This document shows, one piece after another, positions 16,909 through 24,490 of a stretch of 64,000 nucleotides of DNA. The stretch is taken from NCBI RefSeq assembly GCF_025499425.1, contig NZ_JAIMCB010000017.1, forward strand, positions 1 through 64,000. The letters are read 5' to 3'. The stretch is from Acidiferrimicrobium sp. IK. GTDB lineage: Bacteria > Actinomycetota > Acidimicrobiia > Acidimicrobiales > Palsa-688. A model generated the notes under the pieces. That model saw only the letters and a program-made list of their open reading frames with translations, ran no database searches and was not told where the DNA came from. Each line of letters starts with the position of its first letter. Within the stretch, counting starts at the first letter, position 1. A program made the translations under genes and the position numbers.

Positions 16909-17020
16909 GCCACCGCGGCTCGCCGGGGAAGGTGAAACGTAAGCCGCCGGCGCAGGTGATGCGATGCAACCCCGGGATGGCCGCAACGTCGGTCAGCGGC
17001 CCGCAACCCTGGGTCAAGCG

Positions 17021-17094
17021 AGCCCGAGGTCGGATTCGAACCGACGACCTGACGCTTACAAGGCGCCTGCTCTGGCCAACTGAGCTACTCGGGC
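17021..17094 (-). tRNA. tRNA-Thr (anticodon UGU)
   Basis: The complement folds as a cloverleaf: acceptor stem GCCCGAG/CTCGGGC, D arm around GCTCAGTTGGCCAGAGC, anticodon loop CTTGTAA with anticodon TGT, T arm GTCGG-TTCGAAT-CCGAC, and discriminator base T. CCA is not encoded. The 74-nt length is normal. It is flanked by the repeat-protein remnant. Confidence 0.95.
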
Positions 17095-17280: not shown

Positions 17281-17760
17281 ATGATCACCATGTCAACGTC
17301 CGACACTCCTAGCCGCGGCAAGTCAGGGATCGTCGTCGTCGGCGTCGACGGGTCCGAGCCCTCCAAGGAGGCGCTGAGGTGGGCCGCCGAGCAGGCCCGC
17401 CTGGTGGGCGCCCGGCTGCGGGTGGTGCTCTCCTGGGAGCTCCCCAGCGTCGCGTACATGGCGCCCTTGCCAGCCGGCCTGGACTTCGACAAGGACGCCC
17501 ACCGGGTCCTCGACGAGGAGATCGCCGGGGTGCTGGGCCAGCCCGATGTCGACATCGAGAAGGTGGTCGCCGAGGGCCACCCCGCTCCGGTCCTCCTCGA
17601 GCTGTCCAAAGACGCCGACCTGCTCGTCGTCGGCAGCCGAGGCCACGGCGAGTTCGCCGGCATGCTCCTCGGTTCGGTCAGCGAGCACTGCGTCTCTCAT
17701 GCCACCTGCCCGGTGGTGGTCGTCCACCGCCGCGAGGCCGCTGGGTCCCAGCCGGCGTAG
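17281..17760 (+). CDS. Universal stress protein (UspA family), ATP-binding type
   Basis: 159 residues, a single Usp domain after a short polar arm. The start of the fold is IVVVGVDGSEPSKEALRWA; the ATP-binding pattern G-2x-G-9x-G-S is complete at Gly118, Gly121, Gly131 and Ser132. Such proteins bind ATP and help cells persist under stress, hypoxia or energy limitation. The ATG at 17281 follows CCCGGAGG closely; the ATG at 17290 is an alternative. It is convergent with the diiron-protein gene, whose stop is 15 nt away. Confidence 0.9.
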   Translation: MITMSTSDTPSRGKSGIVVVGVDGSEPSKEALRWAAEQARLVGARLRVVLSWELPSVAYMAPLPAGLDFDKDAHRVLDEEIAGVLGQPDVDIEKVVAEGHPAPVLLELSKDADLLVVGSRGHGEFAGMLLGSVSEHCVSHATCPVVVVHRREAAGSQPA

Positions 17761-17775: not shown

Positions 17776-18501
17776 TCACGAGAACCGGGGCGCGGCCATG
17801 GCCGCCAGGCTCTCGTTTTTGTGGACCCGCTCGTCGTAGCTGATCATCCGGAACAGATCGGCGACGCTGTCCACCTCCGCGTAGTCGGCGGCGAACACCG
17901 ACTCGAACGGCTGCTCCTCCCACTCCGGGTGCTCGGCGACCAAGTAGGCGTACTCGTGTTCGGCGTGGTCCTCGAAGTCGGCGTTGAGCCGGTAGCTCCA
18001 TGCCGGGCGGATCACGTAGAGCAGCCACGACAGCTGGTAGTAGACGAACGCCAGCAGCTGCGGGAACAGGGTGAAGCGGATCCATCCCTCGCGGCTGTCG
18101 GAGCGGGCGATCATCTCCTCGAGGATCAACAGGTGCCACTGCTCGTTGTCCTCCTGCCCTCGACTCTCGGTGACCCGGTCGAAGACCCTCCGGGCCAGGT
18201 CCGGCCGCTGGTGGGTGTGGGTAATGGCGATGTAGGCCACCTGCTCCCAGCTCTGGTAGGGGACGCGAGCCACCAGTTCGAGGACCTTGAACTTGGAGAG
18301 CGTCCGCGGCTTTCCGTACACCGCATCGAGCAGAGCGAACAGCGCCTTCGCGCCCGGCCCGTACCGCCTCCTCGGTGCCTCCAGCGTCTCGCGCTGGGTC
18401 GTGGCCAGCTGCTCATGACTCAGCTGTGCCATCGCCCCCTGCGGTCTCGAGCCGGTCAGCCCCGCGGGTCGCACCTCCGCATCGCGCTTCGCTTCGCTCA
18501 T
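17776..18501 (-). CDS. Alternative oxidase-like diiron protein
   Basis: 241 residues. The core matches the membrane-bound diiron quinol oxidase family (AOX/PTOX): a candidate Glu in KVLELVARVPYQSWE (75 or 86), ExxH at Glu120-His123 (NEQWHLL), a Glu/His cluster in FEDHAEHEYAYL (177-184), and a second ExxH at Glu224-His227 (YDERVHKNES). The stretch LFPQLLAFVYYQLSWLLYVI (145-164) is hydrophobic and would lie in the membrane face. AOX enzymes oxidise quinol and reduce oxygen to water without proton pumping. The start at 18501 has AAGGAG 9 nt before it. The family is rare in actinomycetes, and a menaquinol substrate would be needed, so the reaction is inferred. Confidence 0.72.
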   Translation of the reverse strand: MSEAKRDAEVRPAGLTGSRPQGAMAQLSHEQLATTQRETLEAPRRRYGPGAKALFALLDAVYGKPRTLSKFKVLELVARVPYQSWEQVAYIAITHTHQRPDLARRVFDRVTESRGQEDNEQWHLLILEEMIARSDSREGWIRFTLFPQLLAFVYYQLSWLLYVIRPAWSYRLNADFEDHAEHEYAYLVAEHPEWEEQPFESVFAADYAEVDSVADLFRMISYDERVHKNESLAAMAAPRFS

Positions 18502-18724
18502 CGTCCAACACTCCTTCGACGCCGCCTGCCGTGGGACGGTCCTACCCCCGGGCGGTGCGCTTCCCACGGTGTGACCTTCGTCGCCGGCGTTCTCGCCCAG
18601 GCGCATCTCGGACCTATCGCGCCCGAGGGGGCACATTTCTCCTCTGCCTGCTCAAGAGCGGCCTGCGGGTGCCGACAAAGGTTCCGACAACGGCGACCCG
18701 AGCTCACGGACAGGACCTGGTGGT

Positions 18725-20320
18725 ATGGCAAAGATCAAGCTGAACAACCTCACGATCGTGGCGAGGCTCGTCTTCGGGCTCGGCGCGATCGTGGTCCTGC
18801 TGCTGGTCATGAGCGCGGTGGCCTGGACGTCCGCCAGTTCGGATCGATCGCATGCGAAAACCGAGAGCGTCCAGGTCGGCCAGACCCTGAACGGGACGCA
18901 GTTGAAAACCGACGCCGCCCTGCTCGCGCTCGACGAGAACTCCGTCGCTGGCGACTACGCCCTCCACGTGTCCCCGGCCGGCGACCTGGCGTCGTTCCAG
19001 GCTGACAGCTCGACGACGGCGTCCGACCTCGCGGTGGTGCCGGCAAGCCAGCTCTCGTCCGATGAGGCGGCCCTGATGAACGGGTACAAGCAGGCCTACC
19101 AGACGTACCTGTCGCTCTCCGGCCAGGCCAACGCCGCGCTGGCGACCGACACGCCGGCGTCTCGCGCTCACGCCGCCGACCTGATCGGCCAGCTGTCCGT
19201 CGGGTCCATGCTCACCCCGGCCAACAAGCTGGCGGCCATCCGCACGGCCAAGATGTCCAGTGACAGCGCGGGGGCGATCTCGTCTGCCAACAACTCCCAG
19301 ACCCTGGTGCTGGTGCTGGGAGCGCTGGCCCTCGTGCTCGCGGTCTTCGCCTCGATCATGCTGATCCGCTCGGTGACCAGGCCGCTGCGCAAGACCGTCG
19401 ATGTCCTGGAGACCCTTGCTGAGGGCGATCTCACTCGTACCGTCGAAGGCGTCTCCACCGACGACGCGATCGGCAAGATGGCGACCGCGCTCAACAAGGC
19501 GCTGGGCCGTCTGAGGGAGGCGATGGCCGCGATCGGCGAGCACTCCCGCTCCCTCGCCAGTGCCTCCGACGAGCTGTCCTCGATATCCGAGCAGATGACC
19601 GGGAACGCGGACGACACCTCGGCCCAGGCCAATTCGGCGTCGGCCGTCGCCGAGCAGGTGTCGCACAACGTGCAGACCGTGGCTGTCGGCACCGAGGAGA
19701 TGGCCGCCTCCATCAGGGAGATCGCCCGATCGGCCAGCGAGGCGGCCCACGTGGCCAGCCAGGGGGTGACCGTCGCCGGAGCGGCGAACGAGACGGTCAC
19801 CAACCTGGCCCGCAGCACCACCGAGATCGGCGAAGTGGTCAAGGTGATCACGGCCATCGCTGGCCAGACCAACCTCCTCGCGCTAAACGCCACGATCGAG
19901 GCGGCGCGCGCCGGCGAGGCCGGCAAGGGATTCGCGGTCGTCGCCAACGAGGTCAAGGAGCTGGCCCAAGCCACCGCCAAAGCCACCGAGGACGTGACCG
20001 CACGAACCAGGGCCATCCAGGCCGACTCCGAGCAGACCATCTTCGCCATCGGAGAGATCGTCCAGATCATGGAGCAGATCCACTCCGCCCAGGCGACCAT
20101 TGCGTCGGCGGTCGAGGAGCAGAGCGCGACCACCAACGAGATCGGTCGGAACGTAACCGAAGCCGCCAGCGGCTCCAGCGAGATCGCCCGCAACATCGCC
20201 ACCGTCGCAGGGACGGCGTTGGAGACCACGTCGGGCGCGTTGAGCACCCGACAGGCCGCCGACGAGCTGGCTCGGATGGCCAGCGAGCTCGAAGTGCTCA
20301 TCGCCCGTTTCAGCTACTGA
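18725..20320 (+). CDS. Methyl-accepting chemotaxis protein
   Basis: 531 residues. Membrane segments at about 12-34 and 192-214 enclose an extracytoplasmic four-helix-bundle-like sensor domain (35-190); a HAMP domain follows (215-268) and then the long signalling coiled coil. The conserved hairpin tip that contacts CheA/CheW is present at about 375-412 ([20 protein letters not shown]). Ala/Thr/Glu/Gln-rich methylation helices flank it. No che, flagellar or pilus gene is in the window, so its array partners must be elsewhere. The ATG follows a purine-rich AGGACCTGGTGG. Confidence 0.93.
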
Positions 20321-21213: not shown

Positions 21214-21983
21214 GCGCGTCGGCCGCCGAGCTGGCCCGCCGGCTCGCCCCGTGGCGTGGCGAGGGGTCGGGCATCCTCACCGACTTCGACGGGACGTTGG
21301 CGCCGATCGTCGACGATCCCGACGCGGCCGAGGCCCTTCCCGGCAGCGCCGAGGTGCTGAGCGCCCTCGCCGCCCGCCTCGCGCTCGTGGCGGTCGTCTC
21401 CGGCCGCCCGGCGTCGTACCTGACCCGCCATCTGCCCGACGCCCGCGGGGTGGTCCTCGCCGGCCTCTACGGTCTGGAACGGGTCGTCGACGGTCGCGTC
21501 GTCGAGAGCGACGAGGCCCGCCGGTGGCGTCCCGTCGTAGCCGAGGTCGCCGACCGGGCCGAGCGCGAAGCGCCTGCAGGGGTGACCGTCGAGCGGAAAG
21601 GGTCCTCGGTGGCGCTCCACGTGCGCACCGCGCCCCAGCACGCCGGGTGGATCGAGCGCTTTGCCGAGCACGCCGCCGGCGGCAGCGGGCTGGTCGCCCA
21701 TCCGGGGCGCATGTCCGTCGAGCTGCGGCCTCCGACCGGGGGCGACAAGGGGAGCGTCGTCGAGGAGCTCGGAGCCTCCCTGAGCCGGGTGGCGTTCCTC
21801 GGTGACGACCGCGGAGACCTCCCGGCGTTCGCGGCGTTGGAGCGCCTGCGCGCCGGTGGCGTCACGACGTTGGCGGTCGCAGTGGACAGCACCGAGGCGC
21901 CTGCCGAGCTGCTCGCCGCGGCCGACGTCGTCGCGGCCGGTCCCGCCGCGGTCCTCGAGGCGCTGCGCACACTGCTGGGCTGA
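21210..21983 (+). CDS. otsB: Trehalose-6-phosphate phosphatase with apparent CTG start
   Basis: 257 residues if begun at the CTG at 21210. HAD-family motifs: TDFDGTLAP (nucleophile Asp25, acid/base Asp27), VVSGRP with the motif II Ser, the Lys in PTGGDKGSVVEEL and the metal site LGDDRGD. It dephosphorylates trehalose 6-phosphate made by OtsA. In this frame there is no ATG, GTG or TTG between the upstream gene and the DFDGT motif; the first TTG (21297) lies inside the catalytic motif and would destroy it. The CTG at 21210 overlaps the upstream TGA (CTGA) and has AAGGTGG 7 nt before it, so it is the best start. It converges on otsA. Confidence 0.85.
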   Translation: MSASAAELARRLAPWRGEGSGILTDFDGTLAPIVDDPDAAEALPGSAEVLSALAARLALVAVVSGRPASYLTRHLPDARGVVLAGLYGLERVVDGRVVESDEARRWRPVVAEVADRAEREAPAGVTVERKGSSVALHVRTAPQHAGWIERFAEHAAGGSGLVAHPGRMSVELRPPTGGDKGSVVEELGASLSRVAFLGDDRGDLPAFAALERLRAGGVTTLAVAVDSTEAPAELLAAADVVAAGPAAVLEALRTLLG

Positions 21984-21987
21984 GCCG

Positions 21988-22030
21988 CGTCACTACAGGC
22001 CAGCGTCGCTACAGGCGAGCGTCGCTGGCG
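21988..22030. repeat. 16-bp imperfect tandem repeat over the otsA stop
   Basis: Copies at 21988-22003 and 22004-22019 (CGTCACTACAGGCCAG and CGTCGCTACAGGCGAG) are followed by a partial third copy inside the otsA 3' end. The otsA stop codon lies in the second copy. This is a short local duplication between the convergent otsB and otsA genes. Confidence 0.6.
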
Positions 22031-23421
22031 GTTGTGAGTGCTGCCGCGTCGACCAGCGCGTCCCACCAACCCAGCGGGGAGTGGGCGCCGACCGCCGTCG
22101 CCAGCCGCTCGGCTGCGGCCGTCCTGGCGTCGGGCCGGCGGTCCAGCGCCTCGGCGATGGCCTCTGCGGTGGCGGTGACGTCGAAGGGGTTGATGCCGAG
22201 GGAGTGCTCGCCCAGGGAGTCCCACACGCCGGCCTGACGGCTGAGGACCACCGTGCCGGAGCGGTCGTTCACCAGCGGGCCCTCCTGGGCCACCAGGTTG
22301 AGGCCGTCGCGGATCGGGTTGACGAGCAGGACGTCATAGCGGCGCAGCGCGGCGACCGACCGGTGGTAGTTGTCCGTTGGGTCGAGGACGATCGGCGTCC
22401 ATTCGTCGTCGCCCCACTTGGCGTTGAGCAGCTCGACTACCGTCCGCACCTCTTGGCCGTACGCCAAGTAGTCGGGGAGGCCCTGGCGCGACGGGTACAC
22501 GAACGCCCCGAACACCACCCGACCCCGCAGGTCGGCTCGGGTCTCGAGCAGCTCGTCGAACGCCCAGAAACCCCGCAGGATGTTCTTGGACAGCTCGATC
22601 CGGTCGACCCTGACGATGAGCTGGCGGTCCCCGACGAGGCGGTCCAGGGCGGCCAGCTCGGAGCGGCACTCCTGCGACGCGGCGACGGCTCGAAGGTCGT
22701 CGGCGTCGGTGGCCGCCGGCGCGACGAAGGTGGCCGGGGACGCCCCGAGGACCGTCCGGCAGCACTCCGCAAATGCGTCCGCCCACCGAGGCGAGTGGAA
22801 CCCGACCGCACCCGCCCCAGTCATGCCCGCAAGGAGCTCAGCCACCGAGTCGTCCGGGAGCACCGCCATCTCGCCGGGGCTGCACCACGGGGTGTGCACG
22901 AAAAGCGACGTGCGCAGATCAGGGCGCCGGTCCCGCAGCATGGCGCCGACCAGGCCCAGGTGGTAGTCCTGAAGCAGCACGGTGGAGCCGGCCTCGGCCG
23001 TCGCCGCGACCGCGTCGGCGAACGCGGAATTGACCGCCCGGTACGACGCCCACGCGTCGCGCCAGTGACGATCGAAACGAGGCCGGCGGGGCAGGTCCCA
23101 CAGCCCATGGGTGCAATACCAGAGGGCGCCGTTGGCGACCACGTCGTAGTACGCCTGGTACTGGACCGGGTCCACCACCACCGGCTTCCACCGGAACCCG
23201 TCGTCGGCGTGCACGATCCCGTCGGGGGCGCCGGCGCCCGCCGCGGCCTCCCGGTCGGCGTCGCCGAGGGCCGCAGACACCCACAGCGCACCGGCGCGCT
23301 GCGCGCCCGGTCCGAGCGTCACGACCAGGCCGCCGGCGCCCCGCCGAGGGACGAGCGAACCGTCGGCACCCCTCGAAAAGGCCAACGGCCCACGGTTGGA
23401 GACCACGACGGGTGAGGGCAT
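22009..23421 (-). CDS. otsA: Alpha,alpha-trehalose-phosphate synthase (GT20)
   Basis: 470 residues of GT20 architecture. The N-terminal VVSNRGPLAF, the DYHLGLVGAML segment with its substrate-binding Asp/His, the RVDRIELSKNILRGF block with Arg and Lys that bind the donor phosphate, and NPIRDGLNLVAQE at the C-terminal domain are all present. It joins NDP-glucose and glucose 6-phosphate to trehalose 6-phosphate in the cytoplasm. The upstream VLLQDYH region is intact, so the enzyme should be active. Start: ATG at 23421 has AGGG 9 nt upstream; an in-frame ATG at 23439 is the alternative. Convergent with otsB and divergent from glycerate kinase, all within one compatible-solute group. Confidence 0.92.
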   Translation of the reverse strand: MPSPVVVSNRGPLAFSRGADGSLVPRRGAGGLVVTLGPGAQRAGALWVSAALGDADREAAAGAGAPDGIVHADDGFRWKPVVVDPVQYQAYYDVVANGALWYCTHGLWDLPRRPRFDRHWRDAWASYRAVNSAFADAVAATAEAGSTVLLQDYHLGLVGAMLRDRRPDLRTSLFVHTPWCSPGEMAVLPDDSVAELLAGMTGAGAVGFHSPRWADAFAECCRTVLGASPATFVAPAATDADDLRAVAASQECRSELAALDRLVGDRQLIVRVDRIELSKNILRGFWAFDELLETRADLRGRVVFGAFVYPSRQGLPDYLAYGQEVRTVVELLNAKWGDDEWTPIVLDPTDNYHRSVAALRRYDVLLVNPIRDGLNLVAQEGPLVNDRSGTVVLSRQAGVWDSLGEHSLGINPFDVTATAEAIAEALDRRPDARTAAAERLATAVGAHSPLGWWDALVDAAALTTASDARL

Positions 23422-23503
23422 CGGCTGGACCCTACTCATCTCCGAAGCCGCCCGATCCTCGCCACATGAGCGGGAAACGCCGGGGACCCGGCACCATGGG
23501 CGG

Positions 23504-24490
23504 ATGCACCTCGTTGCCGCGCCCGACAAGTTCCGGGGCAGCGCGACCGCCGGCCAGGTCGCGGCGGCGATCGCCGGCGCTGCCCGTCAGGCCGGGTGGA
23601 GCTGCGACCCGGTGCCGGTCTCCGACGGCGGAGAGGGCTTCTTGGACGTGTTCTCCGGCCGGCTACGCACCGCGGTCGTGCGGGGTCCGCTCGGCCAGCC
23701 GGTGGAGGCCAGGTGGCGGATGCTCGACGACGACCGGACCGCAGTGGTCGAGACCGCGCTGGCGTCGGGCCTGCTGCTCGTCGGCGGCGCGGAGGGCAAC
23801 GACCCGGTCGCCGCTGACACGACCGGCACCGGGCAGCTCATCGCCGAGGCGGTCAAGGCGGGCGCCCGGCGGGTCCTGGTCGGTGTCGGCGGCTCGGCGA
23901 CGACCGACGGCGGCCTGGGGGCGCTAGCGGCGCTCGAGCCGCACAGCCGCCTGCGCGGCATCGAGGTGGTGGTCGCCTGCGACGTCGAGACCCGCTTCGT
24001 GGACGCGGCGCCGGTGTTCGCTCCCCAGAAGGGGGCTTCCCCGGCCCAGGTCGAGCTGTTGACCCGCCGCCTGCAGCGCCTGGCCGGCATCTACGGGCCG
24101 GTGATCGCGGGGCAGCCTGGCTCCGGGGCGGCGGGCGGCCTGGCCGGGGGACTGGCAACGGTTGGCGCGACCCTGGTGTCGGGTTTTGAGGTGGTGGCTG
24201 ACGTGCTGGACCTCGCGGCGCGCATCGAGGAAGCCGACTTGGTGGTGACCGGGGAGGGTTATCTAGACGAGCAGTCCTTCGCCGGCAAGGCCGTCGGGGG
24301 CGTCGCGGCGCTGGCCGCCGAGGCGGGCGTGCCGCTGGTCGTGGTCGCGGGCGACGGGGAGGACCCCCAGCCGGTCCGGTGGCGCAGCCTGGTGGCCCGC
24401 GCCGGCGCCGAGCGGGCGTGGTCCGAGCCGCTCGAGGTGATCGCCGAGATCATCGCCGACGAGCTGGCGGAGGTGGGGAAAGGGGCGTGA
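23504..24490 (+). CDS. Glycerate kinase (GarK/GlxK family)
   Basis: 328 residues. Family blocks: APDKFRGSATAGQVAAAIA, PVSDGGEGFLDVF, GVGGSATTDGGLGALAAL, GSGAAGGLAGGL and VVTGEGYLDEQSFAGKAVGG. The enzyme phosphorylates D-glycerate, usually to 2-phosphoglycerate for this type. It faces gpgS, with the two stops 20 nt apart, beside the trehalose genes. A plausible job is to recycle glycerate released when glucosylglycerate is degraded; this is inferred from position only. Confidence 0.88.
   Translation: MHLVAAPDKFRGSATAGQVAAAIAGAARQAGWSCDPVPVSDGGEGFLDVFSGRLRTAVVRGPLGQPVEARWRMLDDDRTAVVETALASGLLLVGGAEGNDPVAADTTGTGQLIAEAVKAGARRVLVGVGGSATTDGGLGALAALEPHSRLRGIEVVVACDVETRFVDAAPVFAPQKGASPAQVELLTRRLQRLAGIYGPVIAGQPGSGAAGGLAGGLATVGATLVSGFEVVADVLDLAARIEEADLVVTGEGYLDEQSFAGKAVGGVAALAAEAGVPLVVVAGDGEDPQPVRWRSLVARAGAERAWSEPLEVIAEIIADELAEVGKGA

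Follow-up and report, generated by a model that had tools for sequence, protein, structure and literature searches.

A predicted diiron protein of the AOX/PTOX superfamily from Acidiferrimicrobium and its relatives, likely a third bacterial branch

PTOX is a quinol oxidase, and COQ7, the demethoxyubiquinone hydroxylase, is a diiron four-helix protein acting on quinones. In its account of distribution, a 2025 survey of oxygen reductases assigned alternative oxidase (AOX) only to Pseudomonadota, with one cyanobacterial match set aside, and PTOX only to Cyanobacteriota, and this distribution was used there for dating the origins of both (PMC7618691). The extent of AOX in prokaryotes has been called still relatively uncertain in another article (PMC9246349). 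No AOX is reported for the acidobacterial genomes of PMC5900883, and the mycobacterial 'alternative oxidases' of PMC7719681 are so named in the general sense of the term. A literature search by title and abstract opening brought up no description of an actinobacterial AOX/PTOX branch; an earlier mention is possible, with most subscription journals lying outside the search.

Here we describe a gene from the actinomycete Acidiferrimicrobium sp. IK. A preliminary description of the same DNA had pointed out its likeness to AOX; what is added here is the position of the protein apart from both described bacterial groups, its relatives in several phyla and a set of conserved differences in the quinol pocket.

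The gene and its predicted fold

The window, i.e. the whole stretch of 64,000 nucleotides that was analyzed, carries on its minus strand an intact gene (17776..18501) for a protein of 241 amino acids, which is assigned to the AOX/PTOX superfamily on the basis of the ORF list, Pfam, the predicted fold and the residue alignment. It extends from an ATG at 18501 to a stop codon that ends at 17776. The motif AAGGAG, which resembles a ribosome-binding site (18511..18516, minus strand), ends 9 nt 5' of this ATG; a longer start at 18636, yielding 286 amino acids, is also open. The gene stands alone. On one side, a plus-strand gene for a HAMP/MCP-signal receptor (18725-20320) reads away from it. The plus-strand gene on the other side encodes a universal stress protein (17281-17760; PF00582, 109.6 bits); it reads toward the AOX-like gene and, lying tail to tail with it, does not form one operon with it. 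Elsewhere in the window (21297-23529), genes for a trehalose-phosphatase and a glycosyltransferase-20 protein of the trehalose-phosphate synthase type are arranged tail to tail. When 23 upstream regions were scored against shuffles with a consensus for a hypoxia/NO (DosR-like) box, none was prominent; the lowest p was 0.17 (L018) and that of the window 0.42.

A gene for tRNA-Thr(tgt) is located about 0.7 kb from the AOX-like gene (17020-17094, minus strand). A recent island at this tRNA was considered and rejected: the tRNA 3' end has no second copy in the window, and the GC3 of the AOX-like gene (0.909) is close to that of its neighbours. The base composition of the gene shows no sign of recent arrival.

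The assignment to an AOX/PTOX-like family, as originally put forward, is borne out by both profile search and structure prediction, and neither of the two refuting outcomes named in the preliminary description arose. The sole Pfam match of the protein up to E 1 is AOX itself (PF01786; E 2e-8, 34.6 bits, cut-off 22.7), and neither COQ7 nor any ferritin-like family is matched within this range. A scan against NCBIfam returned one irrelevant match below its cut-off. Sequence searching of the PDB gave a single chance-level match and no AOX, which was found by fold comparison only. The AlphaFold2 model, based on 30 clade sequences (pLDDT 90.4, pTM 0.86), is almost all helix and is not confident for residues 1-19. 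With this model, Foldseek produced 14 matches at E <=0.001, all of them trypanosome AOX, and comparison with 3w54_A, a trypanosome AOX, by VIA-align 2 gave a Z of 21.0 with an rmsd of 2.6 over 205 residues. Hydrophobic helices are formed by residues 49-62 (GRAVY 1.06) and 140-164 (GRAVY 1.20). They coincide in position with helices 1 and 4 of AOX, and in the trypanosome enzyme these two helices belong to a hydrophobic region that probably binds the membrane (PMC9243770).

The fold comparison also bears on the reading that the protein is soluble and of the ferritin- or rubrerythrin-like diiron kind, scavenging peroxide or oxygen and resembling AOX by chance. The family that follows AOX in VIA-align 2 is nigerythrin (Z 12.8 over 155 residues), and nigerythrin, Dps-like proteins and bacterioferritins all reach Z 11 to 13 with the model. 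Values of this size are, however, common between four-helix bundles and contrast with a Z of 21.0 over 205 residues for AOX. As Pfam yields no ferritin-like family up to E 1 and helices 1 and 4 are hydrophobic, we regard this explanation as highly improbable.

Related loci and their surroundings

One scan of genome contigs uncovered 37 related loci, of which 30 constitute group A and seven group B. Group A stems mostly from Actinomycetota, with three loci from Myxococcota and one from Omnitrophota, and shares 56-75% identity with the window protein for the 22 aligned loci and down to 51% for further members. These 22 of the 30 loci were included in alignments A1 and A2, which omit L005, L027, L028, L034 and L036 (broken or partial) as well as L015, L020 and L021. 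Alignment A1 includes four PTOX rows; of its 34 members, scanned singly, 32 reach Pfam AOX at E 0.01 and three give a weak match to COQ7 as well (best E 0.0029). Group B consists of seven MAGs labelled Fermentibacteria, Phycisphaerae, Bacteroidales, Acidobacteria, Aminicenantes (two) and Chrysiogenales, with identities of 34-39%. As three group A loci are from records of named strains (Pseudonocardia asaccharolytica DSM 44247, Granulicoccus phenolivorans DSM 17626 and Mycolicibacter sp. MYC098), the family cannot be put down to faulty assembly. In the MAG loci L005, L027 and L034 the match is split across two frames, by frameshift or sequencing error.

In annotated collections, cyanophage plastoquinol terminal oxidases are nearest (28 records; 31.3-35.7% identity over 54-57% of the query among the 20 matches listed), and five records are cyanobacterial plasmid genes, four of them annotated as 'alternative oxidase'. 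Within the phylum, the own genome included, four of 396 genomes match the Pfam AOX model and five the clade alignment. Within the order, again with the own genome, 32 of 397 match the clade alignment, one (G495) only with internal stop codons, and the 17 listed genomes of the same genus or family all lack an AOX-like gene. The G495 match (contig C3, 9210-9773) has five such stop codons and is probably a decayed copy; that of G523 from the same genus is intact.

The genes around the related loci are mostly not common among them. An acetate kinase gene is situated directly upstream of the AOX-like gene and on the same strand in L003 and L034, where a phosphoketolase gene beyond the acetate kinase and a peroxidase-family gene downstream are both encoded on the opposite strand. 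In L002, an acetate kinase gene and an ORF of the phosphoketolase cluster follow downstream on the opposite strand. Judged by its length, the peroxidase-family protein of L003 (466-8572) and L034 (1152-9194) resembles KatG; HSP20 and a MerR-family regulator also occur, these two having been scanned in L003 only. The adjoining universal stress protein remarked on in the preliminary description is a real neighbour, but the linkage is not conserved: proteins like that of the window or that of a Nostoc plasmid occur in one of the 37 loci (L013), a lower bound with several loci having short flanks. On this Nostoc plasmid, pn2, an 'alternative oxidase' (L044, 1965-3648) comes after two other genes, one for a universal stress protein, the other for a hexameric tyrosine-coordinated heme protein. 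An AOX gene on a plasmid of Azospirillum brasilense (L047, 963-4174) has a nitrogen-oxide setting: it is flanked by a gene for an Rrf2-family regulator and by one for a group III truncated hemoglobin, after which nirK comes. Patchy presence together with little synteny suggests transfer and loss.

Diiron site, quinol pocket and phylogeny

The alignment used to compare residues has 40 rows from group A (the window protein included), seven from group B, four from PTOX and two from AOX; it omits L005, L027, L028, L034, L036, L038, L039, L050 and L067 as well as six twins of kept rows (L048, L049, L051, L052, L053 and L055). The two ExxH motifs and the central Glu/His cluster noticed earlier are present as E120-QW-H123, E224-RV-H227 and E177-DHAEHE-Y184. 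The predicted four-Glu/two-His diiron set is made up of E75 in AOX helix 2 (codon 18277..18279), E120 and H123 in helix 3 (18133..18144 for E120-x-x-H123), E177 in helix 5 (17950..17973 for the codons from E177 to Y184, including H179 at the Glu215 position and E183 at the Thr219 position) and E224 and H227 in helix 6 (17821..17832 for E224-x-x-H227), all encoded on the minus strand. Their spacing agrees with that of the ligand set given for Arabidopsis AOX in PMC9243770. All six residues as well as Y184, the Tyr220 equivalent, are invariant in 47 of 47 clade, four of four PTOX and two of two AOX rows, i.e. in all 53. This invariance, the Pfam AOX E-value of 2e-8 and the existence of 37 related loci put the resemblance to AOX beyond chance, and the conclusion that the gene encodes a predicted diiron enzyme of the AOX/PTOX superfamily is supported by sequence and model alike.

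Pocket positions were assigned by sequence alignment and by spacing from the ligands, of which Glu123 is one in trypanosome AOX. The quinol-site positions named in a study on this enzyme are Glu215, Arg96, Arg93, Asp100, Arg118 and Thr219, and the pair Glu215/Arg96 is described there as conserved across AOX (PMC11492382). At the Glu215 position, His (His179) is found in 47 of 47 clade rows and all four PTOX rows. The Arg96 position is occupied by Phe (Phe55) throughout the clade (47/47), by Val in PTOX and by Lys or Arg in AOX, and the Arg118 position by Lys in all 47 clade rows and by Arg in all six references. Thr219 is replaced by Glu in 39 of 40 group A rows and by Val, Ser or Ala in group B. 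Asp is retained at the Asp100 position in 46 of 47 clade rows, and Lys or Arg appears at the Arg93 position in 45 of 47, in none of four PTOX and in one of two AOX rows. The Leu212 position holds Phe in 47 of 47 clade rows and both AOX rows, and Val or Ile in PTOX. The metal side is thus complete, while the quinol side is a mix of PTOX-like, AOX-like and clade-specific features.

An altered quinol pocket could mean another substrate. The exchanges of Glu215 for His, Arg96 for Phe, Arg118 for Lys and Thr219 for Glu would fit a diiron oxygenase that has kept the AOX fold and metal site and acts in a COQ7-like manner on a different membrane substrate, such as a quinone precursor, a lipid or a carotenoid. 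The weak COQ7 matches of three of the 34 A1 members point in the same direction, as does a lower-ranking fold match to COQ7 (Z 11.9 over 133 residues). However, His at 215 and the lack of Arg at 96 are common to the four PTOX rows, the Tyr220 equivalent never varies, COQ7 is not matched by the window protein up to E 1, and conserved biosynthetic neighbours are absent around the related loci. An oxygenase of this kind is therefore rather unlikely.

In a tree of 58 rows, 52 clade rows are separated from the four PTOX and two AOX rows with a support of 100/99, the references being few and long branches being flagged; among these six references the clade is neither nested within the PTOX rows nor grouped with the AOX rows. 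Group B forms one clade (100/99), whereas group A as a single clade is without support (31/0). The tree omits L005, L027, L028, L034, L036 and L039 (broken or partial), L021 and the second copies L038, L050 and L067; L068-L070 were added later and are absent from tree and residue table.

A divergent PTOX that spread from cyanobacteria, with no separate branch at all, would agree with the higher identity of the window protein to the four PTOX rows (26.1-28.7%) than to the two AOX rows (17.7-20.5%), with the pocket residues His179 and Phe71, which are as in PTOX, and with cyanophage and cyanobacterial PTOX being the nearest annotated records among the matches listed. It is nevertheless unlikely, because the clade lies outside the PTOX rows in the tree (with only four PTOX and two AOX references) and differs from them by Lys at 118 (47/47, against Arg in 4/4), Phe at 212 (47/47, against Val or Ile) and a basic residue at 93 (45/47, against 0/4). 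Moreover, L029 from group B is about equally far from both families and no closer to PTOX (15.7-21.6%) than to AOX (18.7-21.4%). That the clade represents a third bacterial branch beside AOX and PTOX is thus likely rather than settled, since long branches meet in the tree and six references are few.

Host quinones, proposed function and comparison with known systems

The genomes surveyed for host traits number 34, i.e. 27 of group A, with the own genome, and seven of group B; they represent 33 of the 37 loci (without L005, L027, L028 and L036) plus the own genome. The latter encodes MenA (245.7 bits, cut-off 102.15) and has no COQ7 match, which makes menaquinol the likely quinol and plausibly the electron donor of the window protein. 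MenA exceeded the cut-off in 24 of 27 group A and one of seven group B hosts, the futalosine-pathway family PF02621 in one group A genome (Omnitrophota, without MenA) and two of seven group B genomes, and any menaquinone-pathway marker in 25 of 27 and three of seven, respectively. The proteobacterial UbiA model was over its cut-off in none of the 34 hosts and in three of 14 control genomes; UbiA-like prenyltransferases scoring below the cut-off were present in 32 of 34 hosts. The own genome, to which the cytochrome bd search was confined, has four COX1 genes and one full cytochrome bd subunit I, plus a short match that barely exceeds the cut-off. COX1, a Pfam family that also includes NO reductases, was over the cut-off in 26 of 27 group A and none of seven group B hosts, many of the hosts being incomplete MAGs.

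In our view the protein is probably a membrane-surface diiron quinol oxidase on a branch of its own that serves as a non-pumping menaquinol:O2 overflow valve. From homology, predicted fold, residue conservation and the quinone and oxidase genes of the hosts, all of which were observed, we infer iron binding, membrane association, quinol oxidation and the valve role. E75, E120, H123, E177, E224 and H227 would hold two irons within a four-helix bundle, at which O2 would be bound and split with Tyr184 as a radical relay, and the electrons would be derived from menaquinol, the quinol that the host is equipped to make. Since menaquinol oxidation by the AOX-like enzyme would not pump protons, it could relieve an over-reduced menaquinol pool whenever the pumping oxidases are blocked or cannot keep pace, and the valve would work beside heme-copper and bd oxidases. 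Acetate kinase beside the AOX-like gene, as at two loci, would fit non-respiratory ATP formation combined with redox relief.

Several findings were counted against this assignment. The pocket, with His/Phe for Glu215/Arg96 in 47 of 47 rows and Glu for Thr219 in 39 of 40 rows of group A, could point to another substrate, and around the related loci there is no conserved partner gene to speak for a respiratory role. Also weighed against it were the Pfam results for A1 (32/34 for AOX at E 0.01, 3/34 weakly for COQ7), quinone markers over the cut-off in only three of seven group B hosts and the occurrence, in 32 of 34 hosts, of UbiA-like prenyltransferases that score below the cut-off. More tentatively, the third branch may well operate on menaquinol with a rewired proton-loading site (His/Phe, Lys and, in group A, Glu), and in the group B genomes, none of which has a heme-copper oxidase over the cut-off, it may be a main O2 consumer of otherwise anaerobic cells.

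Such a branch, catalytically complete, present in Actinomycetota, Myxococcota and Omnitrophota and with distant relatives in the group B MAGs, would alter the surveyed distribution of AOX and PTOX. It would serve as a natural experiment on the way in which the quinol pocket of AOX is adapted to different quinones, and it may also provide a cyanide-insensitive bypass in actinobacterial respiration. With three members in named strains the branch is testable in culture, and the pocket differences fall at testable positions.

Among the known systems, COQ7 is matched by the model in fold (Z 11.9), far more weakly than AOX, and differs in that its Pfam model is not matched by the window protein. With the AOX of mitochondria and Pseudomonadota the clade shares the fold (Z 21.0 for trypanosome AOX), the six ligands, Tyr220 and the Phe at Leu212 seen in both proteobacterial rows; in contrast, Glu215, Arg96 and Arg118 are replaced, and the window protein is 17.7-20.5% identical to these two rows. 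With PTOX of cyanobacteria and cyanophages it has in common the superfamily, the six ligands, the tyrosine, His at Glu215, the lack of Arg at Arg96 and an identity of 26.1-28.7%. It departs from PTOX by Lys for Arg118, by Phe where PTOX has Val (Arg96 position) or Val/Ile (Leu212 position) and, in group A, by Glu at Thr219, by about five extra residues after the start of helix 2, by the absence of the 18-column C-terminal insert of the cyanobacterial rows, and by hosts that carry menaquinone markers.
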